Source: Actinoplanes regularis (lineage in GTDB: Bacteria > Actinomycetota > Actinomycetes > Mycobacteriales > Micromonosporaceae). From it: a stretch of DNA of 64,000 nucleotides. The notes under the pieces were generated by a model. It saw only the letters and a program-made list of their open reading frames with translations. It was not told the DNA's origin and did no database searches. Positions 26,102 through 63,399 of this stretch are shown piece after piece. Made by a program: the position numbers and the translations under genes. The DNA is taken from NCBI RefSeq assembly GCF_900188005.1, contig NZ_FZNR01000005.1, positions 372,001 to 436,000 on the forward strand, in the 5' to 3' direction. Within the stretch, counting starts at the first letter, position 1. Every line of letters begins with the position of its first letter.

Positions 26102-26883
26102 CCGAGGCTGACCGTCGCACCATCGCCGACCGGCTGCGCGTCGCCGAGCGCGACCGCAAACCGATCCCTCCGCTGGTACGGGAGCGGCCCGACCTGACCG
26201 CCGCCGACGCGTACGCGATCCAGCTCGCCAACATCCGCCGCCGCGACAGCGCGGTCGTGGGCCACAAGGTCGGGCTCTCCTCGGCGGCGATGCAGCAGAT
26301 GATGGGCGTCGACGAGCCGGACTATGGGCACCTGATGGCCGACATGAGACTGTCCGAGACCGAGCCGGCCGACGCGTCGCGCTACTGCTACCCACGGGTC
26401 GAGATCGAGGTGGCCTTCCTGCTCGGCGCCGACCTGCCCGGCGCGGACTGCACCGAGCGGGACGTGCTCGCGGCGACCGAGGCGTTCGCACCGTCGATCG
26501 AGCTGATCGACAGCCGGATCGAGGACTGGAACATCAGCCTGGCCGACACGATCGCCGACAACGCCTCGTCGGCCGGGTTCGTCGTCGGCGCCGGCCGGGT
26601 GCCGCCGGACGGGATCGACATCCGCGGGATCGAGGCGGTGCTCCTCGAGGACGGCGAGCCGGTGGCGCGGGGGCGTTCCGACGCCGTACTCGGCAACCCG
26701 GTGACCGCGGTGGCCTGGCTCGCCCGCACGGTCGCCGGCTTCGGGGTCCGGCTGCGCGCCGGTCACCTGATACTGCCCGGAGCCTGTGCCCGTGCGGTCG
26801 ACGTGCACCCGGGCTCCTCGTTCCACGCGGTGTTCACCGGCCTCGGTGACGTGCGGCTGTCCTTCGCAGGGAGTGAGTCATGA
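26095..26883 (+). CDS. hsaE: 2-Hydroxypenta-2,4-dienoate hydratase family, HsaE
   Basis: A 262-residue hydratase/decarboxylase of the MhpD/DmpH family, with [34 protein letters not shown] (metal-binding acidic cluster) and [22 protein letters not shown]. It hydrates 2-hydroxyhexa-2,4-dienoate, released when HsaD cleaves the ring A/B product, to 4-hydroxy-2-oxohexanoate. The ATG lies inside the upstream flavoprotein gene and the stop overlaps the hsaG start (ATGA). Confidence 0.92.
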
Positions 26884-27737
26884 CCCGGTTGACCGCGGCG
26901 ATCGTCGGGTCCGGCAACATCGGCACCGACCTGCTGTACAAGCTGCTGCGCTCGGACGCGATCGAGCCGCTCTGGATGGTCGGCATCGACCCGGACAGCC
27001 CCGGGCTGCGGCGCGCCGCCGACCTCGGCCTCGCCGCCAGCGCGAAGGGCGCCGACTGGCTGCTCGCCCAGGACCCGCTGCCCGACCTGGTCTTCGAGGC
27101 CACCTCGGCGGCCGTGCACAGGGCCTGGGCGCCGCGCTACGCCGAGGCCGGGATCCGCGCGATCGACCTGACCCCGGCGGCCGTCGGACCGCTCGTCGTG
27201 CCCGAGGTCAACCTGCGCGAACATCTCGGCGCGCCGAACCTCAACCTGATCACCTGCGGCGGGCAGGCGACCATTCCCATGGTGTACGCGGTATCCCGGT
27301 GCACGCCGGTCGGTTACGCCGAGATCGTCGCCACCGTGGCCTCCCGCTCGGCCGGGCCGGGCACCCGGGCCAACATCGACGAGTTCACCCGTACGACCGG
27401 GCGCGCTCTCTCGCTCGTCGGCGGCGCGGCCAGGGGCAAGGCGATCGTCGTGCTCAACCCGGCCGACCCGCCGCTGGTCATGCGGGACACCGTGTTCTGC
27501 GCGATCGGCCCCGACGCCGACCCCGCCGCGATCGGCGACTCGATCGTCGAGATGGTCGCGGCGGTGGCCCGATACGTCCCGGGCTACCGGCTGCTCAGCG
27601 AACCGCAGTTCGACGACGGACGGGTCGCGATCTTCCTGGAGATCGCCGGGGCCGGGGACTTCCTTCCGCCGTACGCCGGAAATCTGGACATCATGACCGC
27701 GGCCGCGGCCCGGGTGGGGGAGGAGCTGGCCACATGA
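26880..27737 (+). CDS. hsaG: Acylating acetaldehyde/propanal dehydrogenase, HsaG
   Basis: A 285-residue enzyme with the NAD motif [18 protein letters not shown] and the catalytic-cysteine segment [13 protein letters not shown]. It converts the aldehyde made by HsaF to acyl-CoA (propanal to propionyl-CoA in sterol catabolism); the aldehyde is channelled within an HsaF-HsaG complex. It is coupled to hsaE by ATGA. Its stop codon overlaps the ATG of the first of two tandem 77-bp minicistrons that separate it from hsaF. Confidence 0.93.
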
Positions 27738-27814
27738 GCGAGCTTGCGAGTGAATCGGTTGGCTCAGTTTTCAGCTCATGGCGACGCCGGAGCGCAGCGG
27801 AGGTGGCGCTATGA
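27734..27814 (+). repeat. 77-bp minicistron repeat, copy A (hsaG-hsaF junction)
   Basis: The repeat unit is 27734-27810. It starts with ATG overlapping the hsaG stop (ATGA) and encodes 26 residues: [12 protein letters not shown], a variable VFSSW-type centre, then [10 protein letters not shown]. Its TGA (27812-27814) overlaps the ATG of copy B. It carries ggaggt six bases before the next start. The 77-base length (3n+2) is exactly what recreates a start/stop overlap at both ends. Confidence 0.85.
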
Positions 27815-27891
27815 GCAAGCTTGCGAGTGAATCGGTTGGCTCAGTCGTCAGGGCACGGCGACGCCGGAGCGCAGCGGAGGTGGCGCCGTGA
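27811..27891 (+). repeat. 77-bp minicistron repeat, copy B (tandem, before hsaF)
   Basis: The second, adjacent unit (27811-27887) encodes [12 protein letters not shown], a variable centre and [10 protein letters not shown], and its TGA overlaps the hsaF GTG (GTGA). It differs from copy A at a few bases, most of them in the centre. The tandem pair implies duplication or repeated insertion at one junction. Confidence 0.85.
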
Positions 27892-28907
27892 CCAGCGATA
27901 TCAGGATCACCGATTCCACGCTGCGGGACGGCTCGCACGCCAAACGTCACCAGTTCACCGTCGCGGAGGTCACGGCGGTCGTCGCCGCCCTGGACGCGGC
28001 CGGCGTGCCGGTGATCGAGGTGACCCACGGCGACGGCCTGGGCGGGTCGTCGTTCACCTACGGCGTCTCGCGGACCCCGGAACAGGAGCTGATCAGGGCG
28101 GCCGTCGCGACCGCCTCCCGGGCGAAGATCGCGTTCCTGATGCTGCCCGGGATCGGGCTCTTCGACGACATCCGCGAGGCCGCCGCCAACGGCGCCACGG
28201 TCTGCCGGATCGCCAGCCACTGCACCGAGGCCGACATCACCGAGCAGCACTTCGGACTCGCCCGCGAGCTCGGGCTGGAGACCGTCGGCTTCCTGATGAT
28301 GGCCCACTCCCAGCCGCCCGAGGTGCTCGCCGCGCAGGCCCGGATCATGGCCGACGCCGGCTGCCAGTGCGTCTACGTCGTCGACTCGGCCGGCGCGCTC
28401 GTGCTCGACCAGGTCAGCGACCGGGTCGCGGCGCTGGTGGCCGAGCTCGGTGACGACGCCCAGGTCGGCTTCCACGGCCACGAGAACCTGGGCCTCGGGG
28501 TGGCCAACTCGGTCCTCGCCGTGCGGGCCGGGGCCAGGCAGATCGACGGCAGCACCCGGCGGTTCGGCGCCGGGGCCGGGAACACGCCGGTGGAGGCGTT
28601 CGTCGGGGTCTGCGACAAGCTCGGCATCCGTACCGGCGTGGACTTCTTCGCCATTGTCGACGCGGCCGAGGACGTCGTACGCCCGGTCATGCCGGACGAG
28701 TGCAAACTCGACCGCCTCGCCCTGATCATGGGTTATGCCGGGGTGTACTCCAGCTTCCTGACCCATGCCTTCACGCTCGCCCAGCGGTATCAGGTCTCCG
28801 GTGCCGAGATCCTGGTGCGGGCGGGGGAGCGGCGCCTGGTCGGCGGCCAGGAGGATCAGTTGATCGACATCGCGATCCAGCTCGGTCGCACGGGTCAGCC
28901 GTCGTAG
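27888..28907 (+). CDS. hsaF: 4-Hydroxy-2-oxovalerate aldolase family, HsaF
   Basis: A 339-residue DRE-TIM metallolyase: [18 protein letters not shown] near the N-terminus (catalytic Arg-Asp), [16 protein letters not shown] (metal-ligand HxH) and [20 protein letters not shown]. It splits 4-hydroxy-2-oxohexanoate into pyruvate and propanal and works as a complex with HsaG. Its GTG start follows a ggaggt site supplied by repeat copy B. The 3' end overlaps the convergent secreted-protein gene by 13 bases. Confidence 0.93.
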
Positions 28908-39932: not shown

Positions 39933-40262
39933 ATGCGACAGGTGACGTACTTCATCCTGGCCGCTCTGCAGAGTGGTCCGAGACATGGTTACGCGATCAT
40001 CAAACAGGCCGACGAGCTCTCCCAGGGGCGCGTGCGGCTGGCGACCGGCACCCTCTACACCGCCCTCGACCGGCTGACCGGCGAAGGGCTGGTGCAGGTC
40101 GTGAACGAAGAGGTGGTGAACGGTCGGGCGCGGCGCTACTACGACCTCACGCCGGCCGGCCGGGCCGCCCTGCACGCCGAGGCCGTCCACCTGGCCGCCG
40201 CCGCCCGGGTGGTCACCGACCGGATGTCCACCGCCGTCCGGCCCGCGGCGGGCCTCACATGA
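39933..40262 (+). CDS. PadR family transcriptional regulator
   Basis: A 109-residue PadR protein: YFILAALQSGPRHGYAIIKQ (helix 1 and recognition start), VRLATGTLYTALDRLTGEGLV (winged helix, GTLYxxLxRLxxxGL signature) and RRYYDLTPAGRAAL. It probably represses its own operon, which continues through a minicistron repeat into a membrane protein; PadR plus permease-prefix-domain protein is a common actinobacterial pair. Confidence 0.9.
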   Translation: MRQVTYFILAALQSGPRHGYAIIKQADELSQGRVRLATGTLYTALDRLTGEGLVQVVNEEVVNGRARRYYDLTPAGRAALHAEAVHLAAAARVVTDRMSTAVRPAAGLT

Positions 40263-40339
40263 GCGAGCTTGCGAGCGAATCGGTTGGCTCGGTCATGAAC
40301 TCAGGTCGACGCCGGAGCGCAGTGGAGGTGGCGGCATGA
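40259..40339 (+). repeat. 77-bp minicistron repeat, copy C (padR junction)
   Basis: The unit 40259-40335 starts with ATG overlapping the padR stop (ATGA). It encodes [12 protein letters not shown], a variable MNSG centre, then RRRSAVEVAA. Its stop TGA (40337-40339) overlaps the ATG of the membrane-protein gene at 40336. A ggaggt ribosome site lies inside it. Confidence 0.85.
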
Positions 40340-41226
40340 GCGCCCAGGTCGAGCGCCGGTACACGCGTCTGCTTCGCCTCTACCCGGCCGCCTACCGCCG
40401 TGAGCGCGGTTCCGAGCTGCTGGACACGCTGCTGGAAGTGGCCGCCGATCAGGGCCGGAGCCGCCCGTCGGCGCGCGAGACCGGTGCGCTGGTCCTGGGC
40501 GCGTTGCGTGCCCACGCGGGCCACGGCCGCCGCCGAGGTGCTCGGCAGAGCTGGCTGGCCGCCTCCCGAGTCGCCGCGCTGATGCTGATCGCCTATGCGC
40601 TGGCCGACGCGATCGCTCAGATCGGCCACCACACCGTGTTCCGGGCGTCGTTCCCGTACCTGATGGCGGGGATCGTGGTGCTGAGCGCCGGCGCCCTCGT
40701 CGCGGTGCTGCGCCATCGCTATGCGATAGCGGTCGCCGCGTCCGTGGCGGCGTTCCTGTTGTCGGTCGGCATGTGGCCGCTCGTCAGGCCCAGCGACGGT
40801 ACGTTCTGGTTGCTCCCGCTCGCGACGGTGGCGCTCCTGCCGCTGCTGCGGCACCGGTGCGAGCCGAGTGCCGGCCTGCTCCGCTATCTCCCGCTGGCGC
40901 CGTTGCTCCTGGTCGGCGTGGACGCGGGCAGGAGCGTGCCGCTACTCGCCGGCCTCGCGGACGTCCTCGGGCCCGTGGTCGTGCTCGGCATCGGCGGCGT
41001 CGGGCTGCTCTGGCTTGCCGTCGACGAGCGGGTGACCATGGCGATCGGACTGTTCGCCGTCAACGTGCTGCTGATCCAGGTGTCCTTCGAGATGGAGGGC
41101 GGCTTCGGTGCCTCGGCCCGATCGACCCCGGTGATCGCGGCCCTGCAGATCGGGGTCGCCGCGGTCGCGCCCGCGCTCCTCTTGGGCGCGGCCACCCTGA
41201 CCGCCCGCTTCCATTCCCGCCTCTGA
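40336..41226 (+). CDS. Permease-prefix-domain membrane protein
   Basis: A 296-residue protein. The cytoplasmic N-terminus (RYTRLLRLYPAAYRRERGSELLDTLLEVA) is the permease-prefix domain commonly found beside PadR regulators. About seven hydrophobic helices follow (for example SRVAALMLIAYALADAIAQ, LLRYLPLAPLLLVGVDAG). No ATPase or catalytic motif is present. The function is unknown; co-transcription with padR suggests a regulated membrane stress or transport role. Confidence 0.75.
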   Translation: MSAQVERRYTRLLRLYPAAYRRERGSELLDTLLEVAADQGRSRPSARETGALVLGALRAHAGHGRRRGARQSWLAASRVAALMLIAYALADAIAQIGHHTVFRASFPYLMAGIVVLSAGALVAVLRHRYAIAVAASVAAFLLSVGMWPLVRPSDGTFWLLPLATVALLPLLRHRCEPSAGLLRYLPLAPLLLVGVDAGRSVPLLAGLADVLGPVVVLGIGGVGLLWLAVDERVTMAIGLFAVNVLLIQVSFEMEGGFGASARSTPVIAALQIGVAAVAPALLLGAATLTARFHSRL

Positions 41227-57303: not shown

Positions 57304-58464
57304 GTGCAGGACGACCAGGAGTTCAGGCGCGAGATCCGGGACTGGCTCGCCGCGAACGTGACCGACGACCTGCGTGGCGCCGGTGGCGCCGGCCGGGAGA
57401 ACGAGGCCTTCTCCAGACGCCTCGACTTCACCCGCCGCCTGGCCGCCGCCGGCTGGAGCACCCTCGCCTGGCCGGTCGAGCACGGCGGCCGGGGCGCGTC
57501 CCTGCAGCGTCAGGTCATCTTCCATGAGGAGTATGCGAAGGCCGGTGCCCCCGGTCGGGTCGACCACATCGGCATCACCATGGTCGGCCCCACCCTCATG
57601 CAGCTCGGCACCGACCGCCAGCGGGAGCGGTTCCTGCCGGGTATCGCCACTGCCACCGAGCTGTGGTGCCAGGGCTACTCCGAGCCCGGCGCCGGCTCCG
57701 ACCTCGCCGCCGTCACCACCCGGGCGGAGCTCGACGGCGACCACTGGGTGCTCACCGGTCAGAAGGTGTGGACGTCGCTGGCGCACGTGGCCGACTGGTG
57801 CTTCGTGCTGGCCCGCACCGCACCGATCCCTGAGGGCGCCTCCCGCCACGCCGGCCTGTCCTACCTGCTGGTGCCGATGCGCCAGCCCGGCGTCACGGTC
57901 CGCCCGATCCGCCAGCTCACCGGCGACAGCGAGTTCAACGAGGTGTTCTTCGACGGCGCCCGCACCGAGCGCGACCTGGTCGTCGGTGAACCCGGTCAGG
58001 GCTGGCGGGTGGCGATGGCGACGCTCGGCTTCGAGCGCGGCGCGGCCACCGTCGGCCAGCAGGTCGGCTTCCAGCGCGACCTCGACGACCTGGTCGCGCT
58101 GGCCCGGCGCACCGGCGCGACCGACGACCCGGCCGTCCGCGAGCGACTGACCCGGGCCTGGATCGACCTGACCGTGCTGCGTGCACACACCCTGCGGGTG
58201 CTGTCCGCGCCGCCGTCGGCCGGCACCGCCACCGTCATCAAGCTGCTCTGGTCGCGCTGGCGGCAGGGGCTCGGCGAACTCGCCATGACCATTCTCGGAC
58301 CGGCCGGGGTGGCGTCCGTGACCGGCGACGACGGGGAGGCCGACCGCTGGCGGCGACTGTTCCTGTTCAGCCGGGCCGACACCATCTACGGCGGCTCCAA
58401 CGAGATTCAGCGCGGCATCCTCGCCGAGCGGGTCCTCGGCCTGCCCCGCCAGGACCGCCGGTGA
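57304..58464 (+). CDS. fadE30: Acyl-CoA dehydrogenase FadE30
   Basis: A 386-residue acyl-CoA dehydrogenase: AAAGWSTLAWPVEHGGRGAS, CQGYSEPGAGSDLAAVTTRA, GQKVWTSLAHVADWCFVLAR and IYGGSNEIQRGILAERVLGLPR. In mycobacteria FadE30 dehydrogenates 5OH-HIP-CoA. GTG start with a gggaggc site; the stop overlaps the ipdF GTG. Expressed opposite fadD3 from the KstR2-operator region. Confidence 0.88.
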   Translation: MQDDQEFRREIRDWLAANVTDDLRGAGGAGRENEAFSRRLDFTRRLAAAGWSTLAWPVEHGGRGASLQRQVIFHEEYAKAGAPGRVDHIGITMVGPTLMQLGTDRQRERFLPGIATATELWCQGYSEPGAGSDLAAVTTRAELDGDHWVLTGQKVWTSLAHVADWCFVLARTAPIPEGASRHAGLSYLLVPMRQPGVTVRPIRQLTGDSEFNEVFFDGARTERDLVVGEPGQGWRVAMATLGFERGAATVGQQVGFQRDLDDLVALARRTGATDDPAVRERLTRAWIDLTVLRAHTLRVLSAPPSAGTATVIKLLWSRWRQGLGELAMTILGPAGVASVTGDDGEADRWRRLFLFSRADTIYGGSNEIQRGILAERVLGLPRQDRR

Positions 58465-59234
58465 CCGCCCCGCCGGACGGGCACGCCCTGCTCGACGGCA
58501 AGGTCGTGGTGGTGACCGCGGCGGCCGGCACCGGGATCGGCGCCGCCATCGCCGAGCGCTGTCTCGCCGAGGGCGCCCGGGTGGTGCTCAGCGACAGCCA
58601 CGGACGGCGGCTCGCCCAGGCGCACGAGCGCCTGATGAGGACGTACGGCAAGAAGGTCTGGTCCCTGCCCTGCGATGTCACCGACGACCGGGACGTGCGG
58701 GCTCTGGTGAGCGGCGCGGCCGGGGAGTTCGGGCGGATCGACGTCATGATCAACAATGCTGGGCTGGGCGGCGAGCGGGCGGTCAGCGAGATGACCGACG
58801 ACGAGTGGACGCGCGTCCTCGACGTCACCCTCACCGGCACGTTCCGCTGCACCCGGGCCGCCCTGCGGCAGCTGATCGCGCAGGGCGGCGGGGGAGCGGT
58901 GATCAACAACGCCTCCGTGCTCGGCTGGCGCGCCCAGGCCGGGCAGGCCCACTACGCGGCGGCGAAGGCCGGGGTCATGGCGTTCACCCGGTGCGCCGCG
59001 CTCGACGTGGCCGCCCACGGCATCCGGGTCAACGCGGTGGCGCCCAGCCTCGCCACCCACCCCTACCTGAGTAAGGTGATCAGCGAATCGGACCTGGCCG
59101 AGCTCGCCCGGCGCGAAGCGTTCGGCCGGGCCGCGCAGCCGTGGGAAGTGGCGACCGTCGTGGCGTTCCTGGCCAGCGACTATGCCTCCTACCTCACCGG
59201 CGAGGTGATCTCCGTCAGCAGCCAGCACCCATGA
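58461..59234 (+). CDS. ipdF: SDR dehydrogenase IpdF (5OH-HIP-CoA dehydrogenase)
   Basis: A 257-residue short-chain dehydrogenase: KVVVVTAAAGTGIGAAIAERC (NAD binding), MINNAGLGGERA, catalytic Ser in NNASVLGWRAQAG, and HYAAAKAGVMAF with the YxxxK pair; all catalytic residues are intact. Position after fadE30 matches Rv3559c (IpdF). It starts at a GTG overlapping the fadE30 stop. Its own stop overlaps the ATG of a minicistron repeat leading to aftD. Confidence 0.88.
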   Translation: MTAPPDGHALLDGKVVVVTAAAGTGIGAAIAERCLAEGARVVLSDSHGRRLAQAHERLMRTYGKKVWSLPCDVTDDRDVRALVSGAAGEFGRIDVMINNAGLGGERAVSEMTDDEWTRVLDVTLTGTFRCTRAALRQLIAQGGGGAVINNASVLGWRAQAGQAHYAAAKAGVMAFTRCAALDVAAHGIRVNAVAPSLATHPYLSKVISESDLAELARREAFGRAAQPWEVATVVAFLASDYASYLTGEVISVSSQHP

Positions 59235-59311
59235 GCGAGCTTGCGAGCGAATCGGTCAGCTCAGTTGTTGGCTCATGTCGACGCCGGAGCGCAGTGGAGT
59301 TGGCGGCATGA
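59231..59311 (+). repeat. 77-bp minicistron repeat, copy D (ipdF-aftD junction)
   Basis: The unit 59231-59307 starts with ATG overlapping the ipdF stop (ATGA). It encodes [12 protein letters not shown], a variable VGSC centre, then RRRSAVELAA. Its TGA (59309-59311) overlaps the aftD ATG at 59308. The ribosome-site core here is ggagtt instead of ggaggt. Confidence 0.85.
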
Positions 59312-62300
59312 CCGGCACGGTGGTGTGGCGGCTGCGGGTGACGGCCTGCTGCGCGCTGCTCACCGGGCTGGCGTTCTGGCAGCAGCCCGGCCGGATCGTG
59401 CCGGACACCAAGGTGGACCTGGTCGTCGCGCCCGGCGCGTGGCTCGCCCGCGCCCTGCACGCCTGGGACCCGGCCGGCAATTTCGGACAGATGCAGAACC
59501 AGGCGTACGGCTACCTGTGGCCGATGGGTCCGTTCTTCGGCCTCGGCAGGCTGCTCGACGTGCCCGCCTGGGCCGTACAGCGACTCTGGTGGGCGATGCT
59601 GCTCTGCCTCGCCTTCACCGGGGTGGTGCTGCTCGCCGGACGGCTCGGCATCGGCTCGCCGGCCACCCGGCTCGCCGGCGGCCTGATCTTCGCCCTCTCC
59701 CCGCGCATCCTCAGTGAGCTGGGGCCGGTCTCGGTCGAGGCGTGGCCCACCGCCGTGGCACCCTGGGTGTTGATCCCGCTGGTCGGCGTCACCCCGGGCA
59801 CCCTGCGCCGGGCGACCGCCCTCTCCGGCCTCGCCGTGGCCACCGCCGGCGGGGTCAACGCCACCGCCGTGCTCGCGGTCCTGCCGCTGCCGCTGCTCTG
59901 GCTGCTCACCCTGCGCCCGCTGCGCTGGCGACTCACCGTGGCGGCCGCCTGGGGCGTCGCGGTCGCCTGCGCCACCGCCTGGTGGGTGGTGCCGCTGCTG
60001 CTGCTCGGCCGGTACAGCCCACCGTTCCTCGACTACATCGAGACGGCCGCGACCACCACCAGCACCACCGACATCGTCAGCACCACCCGCGGCACCTCGC
60101 ACTGGCTGGCCTACCTGAGCAACCCCTACGGACCCGGCTGGCCGGCCGGTAACCGTCTCGTCGTCGAGCTGCCGCTGGTCCTCGCCACCATGGTGGTGGT
60201 CGGACTCGGCCTGGCCGGCCTCGCCCGGCGCGGGCTGCCGCACCGGAGGTTCCTCGTCACCGCGGCGCTCGCCGGGATCGCCGCCGTCGGCCTCGGCCAC
60301 CTCTCCGCGGCGCCCGGCGCCGGGGCCACCATCCTGCACGCCTGGCTCGACGCGGGCGGCGCCCCGCTGCGCAACCTGCACAAGTTCGACGTACTGCTGC
60401 GGCTGCCGCTCGCTCTCGGATTCATCCACCTCGCCGGCCTGACGGCCCGGCTCGCGGCCTGGCGCGCCGGCCTCGTCGGCGCCGCCGTCGCTGTCACCGC
60501 CGCCGTCGCCGCCGTTCCGGCGCTCTCCGGCGGTCTGCCGGGGCAGGGCACATTCACCGAGGTTCCAAGCTATTGGCGTACGGCGGCAGCCTGGCTCGAC
60601 ACGCACGCCGGCCGGAGCAGAACACTGGTCGTGCCCGGTGCCCGCTTCCCGAGCTATCTGTGGGGCGCACCCGGCGACGAGATGGTCCAGCCGCTGCTGA
60701 GCTCGGGCTGGGCAGTGCGCAACTCCAACCCGCTCGTGCCACCGGCCACCGTCCGGTTGCTCGACACCGTCGAATCCGTCCTCGCCGCCGGTCAGGGCTC
60801 GCCCGGCCTGGCCGAGCTGCTCGGCCGCTCCGGCGTGCGCTACCTGCTGATCCGTGCCGACCTGGACACCGGGCGCACCGACGCGCTGCGGCAGCTCACC
60901 GTGCGGGCCGCGCTGGCCGGCTCACCCGGCCTGCGCTCGGTCGCCACCTTCGGCCCGGTCGTCGGCGGGCATCCACCGCAGTACTACGTGGACCACGGCC
61001 TGGACCTGCCGGTGCCGGCCCTCGAGGTGTACGAGGTGGCGGGCACGGCTCCACCCGTCTCCGCCTACGACCTGGCCGACACCCGGACCGTCGTCGGCGG
61101 GCCGGAATCGCTGCTGGAACTCGCCGCCGCCGGGCAGTTGAGCCGGGCGCCGACGGTGCTCGCCGCCGACCAGCCGGCCGGGCTGATCACCGGTGGGACG
61201 GTGGTCACCGACGGTCACCGTCGCCGGGAGATCATCTTCGGTCAGGCCCGGGACAACGTTTCGGCCACCCTGACCGCCACCGAACCGTGGCGCCTCGAGC
61301 AGCCCGCACACGACTACACCGCCGTGGACGACGCCCGGGGGCAGACCGTCGCCCGCTACCTCGGCGTACGGGACGTCACCGCGTCCAGCGCGTACAGCCA
61401 GGCGTTACCGCTCACCAGCAACCGGCCGGCGTACCTGCCGTACGCGGCGATCGACGGCGACCCGGCGACCTCGTGGCGGTCGGCACCCGGCACCGCGGCC
61501 ATCGGCCAATGGCTCACCGTCACCCTCGACCACGCCCGCCGGATCGACCAGGTACGGATCACCTTCGACCACGGTGCCGACGCCATCCCCACCCGGATCG
61601 CCGTCTGGGCCGGCGACGAACGGCACGAGATCCCGGTGACCGGTACGACCGTGACCGTGCCGCTCGACGGCTGGTACGCGGTCCGCGACGTCACCGTCGA
61701 GATCGTGGCGGTCTGGAGCGTACGGCTGGGCCAGGGCGGCGTCGGCATCGCCGAGCTCACCATCCCCGGCGTCTCGGCGCGACGCACCCTCGTGCTGCCG
61801 GCCGGCACCGACCCCGGCGCGCCGGCGCCGGCCGTGATGCTCGCCGCGGCCCCGGCCCTGCCGTCCTGCTTCTACCTCGGCCCGCTGCCCTACTGCGCCG
61901 CGACCGCCGCCCGTGGCTCGGAGGACGGCTCGATCCTCGACCGGACCGTGCCGTGGTCGCTGCCCGGCACGTACACGGCCCGTCTCTGGGCTCGCCCGCG
62001 CGCCGGACCGGCCGTCGACGACCTGCTCGACAGGGCGATCGCCGGGCCGGACACCCCGCACGTCACCGCCTCGTCGACCGGCGTCGCCGACCCCGCGGCC
62101 CGGGCCGGTGCGGTCGTCGACGGCAGCGACGACACCGTCTGGTACGCCAGCGAAGAGGACCGGACGCCGTGGCTGCGGCTCGACTGGTCGTCCCCGCGCA
62201 CCGTCACCGGCGTGCGCGTCACGCTCGGGGAGCGGGCCGCGGCGGCCCGCCCATGGGCGGTGAACGTGCTGACCGACGCCGGGTCGCGGGCCGGCATCCT

Positions 62301-63399
62301 GGGCGCGGACGGGTGGCTCGCCCTGGACCCGCCGGTGCGTACCGACGATCTCACCGTGCTGTTCACCGGCGGTCCCGTCGCGGTCAACTTCGACTCGTAC
62401 GCCGGTCGGTTCGACAACCTGCCGATCGGGGTCGGCGAGGTGAGCGTCTCCTCGGATCGGGGGCCGGCAGTGCTCGGCGGGGGAGCGGCCAGCGTGGTCC
62501 GCCTGCCCTGCGGCAGTGGCCCGGCCCTGGAGATCGGTGGTCGCAGGATCACGACGGCGTTCACCGCTACCGTCGCGGATCTGCTCGCCCGGCGTGAGCT
62601 GCCGATGCGGCTGTGTGAAACCGAGCAGGTTCGGCCGGGAGATGCGGTGCGGGTGGTGGCCACCGGGAGCGCGGCGGTCGAGCCGACCAGGATGGCCCTG
62701 CTCCCCGCCGGAGGCGCGTCGACCGGGGTGCCGGTCGACAGTGCCCTCTCCGTCGACCGCTGGGATGCCGCCCGGCGGCAGGTCACGCTCGCGTCGTGGC
62801 CGGCCTCGCGGATCCTGGTGGTGCGGGAGAACGCCAACGCCGGGTGGCAGGCCCGGGTCGGCGAGCAGCCGCTGCGCCCGGTCACGGTCGACGGCTGGCA
62901 GCAGGGCTGGATCGTCCCGGCCGGGCTGTCCGGCGCGGCGACCATCGAGTTCGGCCCCGACCAGGTCTATCGGGCCGGGCTGGCCGGGGGAGCGGTCCTC
63001 GTGGCCGCGGTCGTGCTCGCCGCGGTCCTGCCGACTCGGCCCGTGACGACCGCACCGGTCCTCGTCGCGCCCCGCCGACGTCGGCTCGGCGGTCCTCTGG
63101 TGTTGCTGGGTGGTCTCTTCCTGCTCGTGGCCGGCGGTTATGCCGTAGTGGCGTGCGCGGCATTCGGCACGGTGGCGCTCCTCGCGCTGCGGATGGTCGA
63201 CCGGCGCCGTTCGCTGCGGCTGTTGCGGTGGGCGCCGGTCGTCCTCTTCGCGATCGCCTGCCTGCTGTCACTGCGATCGGGCGCGCCGCACACGGCGCTC
63301 GGGCCTCAAGCCGCGGGTCTGGCCGCCTTTGTCGCACTGTGGCTCGGGACGTTGCCGTTCAGCGCGCGGTGCGCCGCGGTTCGGCCGCCGGGTCGGTGA
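59308..63399 (+). CDS. aftD: Alpha-(1->3)-arabinofuranosyltransferase, AftD family
   Basis: A 1363-residue GT-C membrane glycosyltransferase. The N-terminal ~400 residues have about ten helices with acidic loops near the first helices (GRIVPDTKVDLVVAPG; AWDPAGNFGQMQNQAYGYLW). The long periplasmic part contains two discoidin-like carbohydrate-binding modules (YLPYAAIDGDPATSWRSAPG and GAVVDGSDDTVWYASEEDRT), and the protein ends in further membrane helices. Size and architecture match mycobacterial AftD (DUF3367), which branches cell-wall arabinan. Coupled to ipdF through minicistron repeat D, although functionally unrelated to steroids. Confidence 0.9.
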   Translation: MTGTVVWRLRVTACCALLTGLAFWQQPGRIVPDTKVDLVVAPGAWLARALHAWDPAGNFGQMQNQAYGYLWPMGPFFGLGRLLDVPAWAVQRLWWAMLLCLAFTGVVLLAGRLGIGSPATRLAGGLIFALSPRILSELGPVSVEAWPTAVAPWVLIPLVGVTPGTLRRATALSGLAVATAGGVNATAVLAVLPLPLLWLLTLRPLRWRLTVAAAWGVAVACATAWWVVPLLLLGRYSPPFLDYIETAATTTSTTDIVSTTRGTSHWLAYLSNPYGPGWPAGNRLVVELPLVLATMVVVGLGLAGLARRGLPHRRFLVTAALAGIAAVGLGHLSAAPGAGATILHAWLDAGGAPLRNLHKFDVLLRLPLALGFIHLAGLTARLAAWRAGLVGAAVAVTAAVAAVPALSGGLPGQGTFTEVPSYWRTAAAWLDTHAGRSRTLVVPGARFPSYLWGAPGDEMVQPLLSSGWAVRNSNPLVPPATVRLLDTVESVLAAGQGSPGLAELLGRSGVRYLLIRADLDTGRTDALRQLTVRAALAGSPGLRSVATFGPVVGGHPPQYYVDHGLDLPVPALEVYEVAGTAPPVSAYDLADTRTVVGGPESLLELAAAGQLSRAPTVLAADQPAGLITGGTVVTDGHRRREIIFGQARDNVSATLTATEPWRLEQPAHDYTAVDDARGQTVARYLGVRDVTASSAYSQALPLTSNRPAYLPYAAIDGDPATSWRSAPGTAAIGQWLTVTLDHARRIDQVRITFDHGADAIPTRIAVWAGDERHEIPVTGTTVTVPLDGWYAVRDVTVEIVAVWSVRLGQGGVGIAELTIPGVSARRTLVLPAGTDPGAPAPAVMLAAAPALPSCFYLGPLPYCAATAARGSEDGSILDRTVPWSLPGTYTARLWARPRAGPAVDDLLDRAIAGPDTPHVTASSTGVADPAARAGAVVDGSDDTVWYASEEDRTPWLRLDWSSPRTVTGVRVTLGERAAAARPWAVNVLTDAGSRAGILGADGWLALDPPVRTDDLTVLFTGGPVAVNFDSYAGRFDNLPIGVGEVSVSSDRGPAVLGGGAASVVRLPCGSGPALEIGGRRITTAFTATVADLLARRELPMRLCETEQVRPGDAVRVVATGSAAVEPTRMALLPAGGASTGVPVDSALSVDRWDAARRQVTLASWPASRILVVRENANAGWQARVGEQPLRPVTVDGWQQGWIVPAGLSGAATIEFGPDQVYRAGLAGGAVLVAAVVLAAVLPTRPVTTAPVLVAPRRRRLGGPLVLLGGLFLLVAGGYAVVACAAFGTVALLALRMVDRRRSLRLLRWAPVVLFAIACLLSLRSGAPHTALGPQAAGLAAFVALWLGTLPFSARCAAVRPPGR

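Follow-up and report, generated by a model that had tools for sequence, protein, structure and literature searches.

We examined a 64,000-nucleotide stretch of the genome of Actinoplanes regularis (contig NZ_FZNR01000005.1, positions 372,001 to 436,000), referred to here as the window, in which four copies of a 77-bp repeat lie between protein-coding genes (Table 1). Direct reading confirmed the first-pass annotation in that each copy is 77 bp long and sits between the stop codon of one gene and the start codon of the next, and its description of the encoded peptides agrees with the direct translation of the copies. All four begin with ATGA, and the letters that follow each unit are ATGA or GTGA. 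A profile built from the four copies returned exactly these four matches in the window. The hsaF-type protein encoded next to the tandem pair shares 96% identity with its A. palleronii counterpart and 93-94% with those of three other Actinoplanes/Paractinoplanes genomes.

Table 1. Repeat copies and flanking genes in the window (window coordinates)
Feature	Positions	Strand	Basis or remark
hsaG-type acetaldehyde dehydrogenase gene (upstream of copy 1)	26880..27737	+	TIGR03215 above cut-off; TGA within the first ATGA
Element copy 1, 77 bp, minicistron ATG at 27734	27734..27810	+	direct reading and profile
Predicted 3' stem-loop of copy 1 (unit positions 47-77)	27780..27810	+	consensus fold and pair counts
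GGAGG, ribosome-binding-like, built into copy 1 (unit positions 66-70)	27799..27803	+	sequence
Element copy 2, 77 bp, in tandem with copy 1	27811..27887	+	direct reading and profile
hsaF-type 4-hydroxy-2-oxovalerate aldolase gene (downstream of copy 2), GTGA start	27888..28907	+	TIGR03217, 500 bits, above cut-off
PadR-type regulator gene (upstream of copy 3)	39933..40262	+	
Element copy 3, 77 bp	40259..40335	+	direct reading and profile
296-codon gene (downstream of copy 3)	40336..41226	+	no family above cut-off (Pfam, NCBIfam)
Short-chain dehydrogenase gene (upstream of copy 4)	58461..59234	+	
Element copy 4, 77 bp	59231..59307	+	direct reading and profile
AftD-type arabinofuranosyltransferase gene (downstream of copy 4)	59308..63399	+	PF11847, 749 bits

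Related genomes carry the same gene junctions in an empty state. In four relatives (L031, L032, L033 and L039), hsaG runs directly into hsaF through a single shared ATGA, and a GTGA stands at the equivalent of the 40259 site in one relative (L277; protein 81% identical) and of the 59231 site in three others (L302, L303 and L304; proteins 75-78% identical). One DTGA was found at the equivalent point for all three window locations, these being the sites examined. Because the relatives keep a single DTGA there and lack the repeat, the units are best regarded as insertions. Filled and empty sites do not agree in the first base of the DTGA, and the element's own DTGA could therefore be either the left or the right one.

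Searching the 10.03-Mb genome by BLAST with copy 1 yielded 71 matches. A sequence-only model built from 34 copies brought 152 among the matches listed, with E values up to 10; the 137 with E ≤ 5.2e-4 were kept for the census and the others dropped. Both the 71 matches to one 77-mer and the 137 to the model are more than chance would give. The kept copies fall into 89 arrays, 86 outside the window and three within it, all of which were read in context; 53 contain one unit, 26 two, eight three and two four, and strands are mixed in none of the 36 multi-copy arrays. DTGA was found at both ends of 118 units, which constitute the measurable set. The lengths of 106 of these obey 3n+2 (89 of 77 bp, 14 of 65 bp and one each of 53, 59 and 74 bp), and 12 break it (six of 78 bp, two of 79 bp and one each of 66, 49, 42 and 28 bp). 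The remaining 19 units have no clear DTGA at one edge, several being shortened copies that run into the next gene. The 65-bp class comprises different 12-nt deletions, all in frame and preserving 3n+2: three units (L130, L153 and L196) have lost part of the head, and others (L122, L133, L155, L169, L171 and L172) a segment in or near the middle. No larger element with identical ends was seen among the arrays read in the A. regularis genome, and one 77-mer had no match at E 0.01 in either a plasmid or a phage collection.

At the right-hand end of most arrays (84/89), a DTGA starts a frame of at least 100 codons. In 70 arrays a frame of this length stops at the first TGA and another starts at a DTGA close to the right end; 13 have the downstream frame only and three the upstream frame only, in two the downstream gene uses another start codon, and in one the downstream frame is opened and the left DTGA was not found. 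By way of baseline, 53 of 957 DTGA sites in the window satisfy both the upstream and the downstream frame condition at one site, the test applied to arrays being slightly more lenient in that several right-end DTGAs were allowed. The upstream frame is open for at least 100 codons in 75 of 88 observed cases versus 11 and 50 of 88 in the shifted frames, and the downstream frame in 69 of 75 versus 47 of 75 in a shifted frame; these controls are high in this GC-rich genome. The placement counts therefore tie the unit to start codons and, in most cases, also to stop-start overlaps. The pattern that the first-pass annotation had named as fatal to a coupling cassette, with most copies off gene junctions, of varied length or with broken frames, is not what the genome contains, the exceptions being the 12 measurable units that break 3n+2 and three arrays for which no nearby start codon opens a downstream frame of 100 codons.

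Under filters stricter than those of the census, the repeat was matched in 42 of 67 genomes of the genus, with at least 79 matches in the A. regularis genome, at least 71 in one other (G021) and 1-24 in each of the other 40. Ten of 30 genomes chosen from 80 hsaF loci match, among them Kutzneria buriramensis and Actinokineospora xionganensis with seven weakly scoring matches each. When units from six of those genomes were read in context, a DTGA stood at 3n+2 in 21 of 23 (a 24th, weak match was left out), with lengths of 80 bp in Paractinoplanes toevensis, 77, 71, 68 and 65 bp in Kutzneria and 74 bp in Actinokineospora. Across the order, an exact match to the 23-nt head pattern is present in 19 of 298 genomes, which belong to 10 of 77 genera and to six families; the backward control matched nothing. 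The 21 heads read in these relatives came from 18 of 20 loci (the A. regularis genome and one overlapping locus were left out), and 17 of them are followed by a DTGA at 3n+2, at 71-95 bp. In both sets several diverged relatives contain more than one DTGA, so that one at 3n+2 is easier to find; among the 23 units, some have additional DTGAs at other spacings. The four heads lacking a DTGA at 3n+2 include both from one family (f8), and these two look like remnants. Tandem 95-bp and 89-bp relatives at two loci, L230 (G521) and L243 (G647), have the same head and different bodies and tails.

In the genus of the f8 genomes, which is perhaps Mycobacterium, a head within two mismatches was found in 74 of 396 genomes versus five matches to the backward control, some of the two-mismatch matches being due to chance. 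The head's own frame continues for at least 100 codons in 18 of 28 loci of this genus, where it is fused to the start of a gene. It appears as an in-frame N-terminal extension (MSELASES...) at locus position about 1501 (L249-L275), and three loci (L253, L255 and L273) contain 30-bp tandem copies. Fusion to the N-terminus of a gene is possibly a second fate of the element.

Within the unit, the head (positions 4-23) and, with the exception of positions 51, 62 and 73, the tail (positions 49-75) are mostly fixed, and positions 24-48 are variable. At position 62 (27795 in copy 1) the A/C variation falls at the centre of GCGNAGC, a type of loop that forms very stable DNA mini-hairpins. Codon counts were made on 62 distinct sequences, one per array, with 504 changes from the consensus and with shared ancestry ignored. 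The per-site rates of change for codon positions 1, 2 and 3 were 0.016, 0.030 and 0.040 in the head, 0.264, 0.139 and 0.312 in the middle, and 0.045, 0.079 and 0.047 in the tail, where position 2 is the most variable. Synonymous changes numbered 185 versus 148 expected and nonsynonymous changes 317 versus 339 expected, a ratio of about 0.75. Codons 1-25 are free of stops in all 89 77-mers, and some 17 stop-creating changes would be expected among the 504, a rough figure given that copies share ancestry. Two of the 504 changes would create a stop if alone, and still no 77-mer contains one. We read these counts as pointing to selection for an open frame and little selection on the peptide.

A consensus fold (RNAalifold) places a predicted stem-loop at unit positions 47-77, terminating at the next start codon. 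Across 34 copies, 97.6% of cells are paired, 13 cells carry double changes and the covariation is 0.167, none of which was reached in 500 shuffles. The double changes fall in two of the ten stem pairs, a number reached by 211 of 500 shuffles, and 31 of 500 reach the pair-type count; all of these tests are inflated by related copies. In 53 of 62 arrays position 48 pairs with position 76, versus 37.3 by permutation (none of 20,000 permutations as high); the couplings 25-27, 24-47 and 24-77 match this one in strength and have the appearance of subfamily signal. In the predictions, the GGAGG core is more open (mean unpaired 0.56) than the equivalent window upstream of the arrays (0.44; 81 sequences each), a result that lends no support to the idea that the stem-loop strongly masks the ribosome site. 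A known RNA family was rejected, as an Rfam search of 27300-28300 gave four matches, all far below gathering scores.

The first-pass annotation had left room for a short peptide family in its own right, in which the repeats would be real genes selected for their product. A frame that stays open in all 89 77-mers and the slight synonymous excess are what such a family would predict, but codon change is near neutral, the tail varies most at codon position 2, and the one element peptide searched against Pfam and NCBIfam matched no family. The near-neutral change and this lack of a match led us to reject the proposal, which we consider highly improbable. The predicted structure invites another reading, namely a regulatory cassette under selection, whose stem-loop would partly cover the ribosome-binding site and make the downstream gene strictly dependent on translation of the minicistron. 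The high pairing and the covariation, including that of positions 48 and 76, favour it, whereas the concentration of double changes in two pairs, the inflation of these tests by relatedness, the openness of the GGAGG core and the patchy presence of the repeat across the genus all speak against it, and we think it unlikely.

Direct reading shows the head, ATGAGCGAGC-NN-GCGAGCGAAT, to be symmetric when G.A counts as a pair, a property noticed after the fact. In the f8-genus head set, 49 of 93 heads match the pattern cleanly, with ATGA accompanied by GAAT in 32, GTGA by GAAC in 11 and GTGA by GAAT in none; three start with ACGA (with GAAC) and three with C, and one head excluded as not clean has ATGA with GAAC. 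Six GTGA heads in the A. regularis genome and one in another Actinoplanes retain GAAT. The two head types (ATGA/GAAT and GTGA/GAAC) may each have a single origin, and we treat the pairing of start codon and internal tetranucleotide as a lead rather than a result. Y1 transposase genes were found in 21 of the 67 genus genomes. The repeat is present in 15 of the 21 with Y1 and 27 of the 46 without (p 0.42), and at five or more copies in 8 of 21 versus 15 of 46 (p 0.78), in searches that for both the repeat and Y1 can miss weak matches; a Y1 transposase as mobiliser thus received no support from the 67 genomes. The A. regularis genome contains a full-length Y1 transposase gene (L203; G000:C33:114512-114877), and the nearest repeat on its contig among the matches listed is about 13 kb away. 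Stable single-strand DNA hairpins at the ends found no support in predicted folding energies, which were no better than those of shuffles in five of five cases (z -0.06 to -1.35); the 3' stem-loop does show covariation.

These observations bear on the proposal that the repeats belong with the single-strand DNA elements of the IS200/IS605 or REP kind, and that a Y1 (HuH) transposase acting in trans moves them and chooses DTGA through pairing with the internal GAAT/GAAC. Same-strand placement, a 4-base target at both ends, the palindrome-like head, the stem-loop at the right end and the pairing seen in the 49 clean heads are all consistent with it, and IS608 is reported to recognise a tetranucleotide by base pairing (PMC5934647). 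The absence of a Y1 association, with repeat-rich genomes (G068 and G073) that lack Y1, the DNA folding results, the seven GTGA heads that keep GAAT and the possibility that each head type arose once weigh against it, and we regard the proposal as rather doubtful. A wider conjecture would unite the elements in an order-wide actinobacterial superfamily with one head, DTGAGCGAGCNNGCGAGYGAAY (palindrome-like if G.A is counted), whose internal GAAT/GAAC pairs with and selects ATGA/GTGA; some enzyme would move the cassette on one strand, and insertion at start codons would be programmed and not left by selection. We offer this conjecture as an improbable one.

Mycobacterial interspersed repetitive units (MIRUs) are repeats that serve in tuberculosis strain typing, and the paper of Supply et al. 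from 1997 is reportedly the one that defined them. We consider it very probable that each Actinoplanes copy is a non-autonomous MIRU-type mobile repeat whose insertion point is a DTGA start codon, usually with the stop of the upstream gene inside it; the repeat would keep the operon coupled and would be moved by an enzyme acting through the head and stem-loop. The units are insertions at the three window sites, they lie on the same strand as, and before, the start of a gene, and they carry DTGA at both ends. The mobile, coupling-preserving cassette envisaged by the first-pass annotation is supported by the empty window sites, the 89 arrays, the 3n+2 lengths and the placement of arrays at gene starts, and the diverged relatives with DTGA at 3n+2 (21/23 and 17/21) lend the MIRU-type reading further support. 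Against this reading stand the 12 units that break 3n+2 and the 19 outside the measurable set, the frequently open shifted frames, the additional DTGAs in several diverged relatives and the failure of Y1 to track the repeats.

Judged from their sequence, the units probably let translation carry on into the following gene. On completing the upstream gene, a ribosome would re-initiate on the 26-codon minicistron, read to its TGA and re-initiate on the downstream gene by means of the element's GGAGG; the operon would stay coupled, and the insertion would therefore be tolerated. Such a mechanism would require a length of 3n+2 and an open frame, and the peptide itself would be of little importance. 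The conserved head and 3' stem-loop most likely serve as signals for an enzyme that would move the element, and tandem arrays could arise through repeated insertion at the regenerated DTGA or through slippage. A review describes an equal mechanism for MIRUs, which in its account are apparently mobile, insert at start codons, contain an internal ORF coupled at -4 nt and do little harm on insertion (PMC12548453).

Among known systems, the IS200/IS605 family, including IS608, resembles the Actinoplanes units in its short target adjoining the element and its subterminal structures, as far as these are set out in the accounts cited (PMC5934647, PMC6006769). The Actinoplanes units differ in having no transposase gene and no linked enzyme and in being only about 65-95 bp long. 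REPs are palindromic and are not known to have a coupled ORF at start codons. They share with the Actinoplanes units a high copy number, short length and stem-loops, and mobilisation in trans has been hypothesised (PMC8266576); unlike REPs, the Actinoplanes units show no association with Y1.

The closest likeness is to MIRUs, and the statement of the first-pass annotation that no named element resembles the repeat was mistaken, since the published anatomy of MIRUs is equal to that seen here and includes a 77-bp class (PMC12548453, PMC4213456, PMC2453075). 77-bp and 53-bp MIRUs have been described between senX3 and regX3 (PMC4213456, PMC2453075; also PMC2413405); a published senX3 primer matched none of 401 genomes, and the likeness to the M. 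tuberculosis elements is drawn from their description. Both families comprise short repeats at start codons with an ORF overlapping by -4 nt, apparent mobility, tandem arrays, and a 77-bp unit alongside shorter variants (53 bp in MIRUs; 65, 53 and other lengths in Actinoplanes). The Actinoplanes units are interspersed in many copies, are inserted at start codons with the -4 overlap (coupling being read from the sequence) and have empty counterparts at the three window sites, and by these anatomical features we would class them as MIRU-like. They differ from MIRUs in their genus, in the 89 arrays of one genome and in a head common to relatives in other families of the order. New here are the occurrence of such elements outside Mycobacterium, for which we found no description in the open-access PMC literature (weak evidence of absence), the 23-nt head in six families of the order (in one as remnants only), the 65-95 bp relatives that mostly keep a DTGA at 3n+2, and the covariation in the 3' stem-loop. 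The portions of the MIRU literature cited here name no enzyme that moves MIRUs. With its many copies, shared heads and clear empty sites, the family in soil actinobacteria is a tractable system in which to look for the mobilising enzyme and to measure translational coupling. The family suggests in addition that coupling cassettes are not peculiar to mycobacteria.
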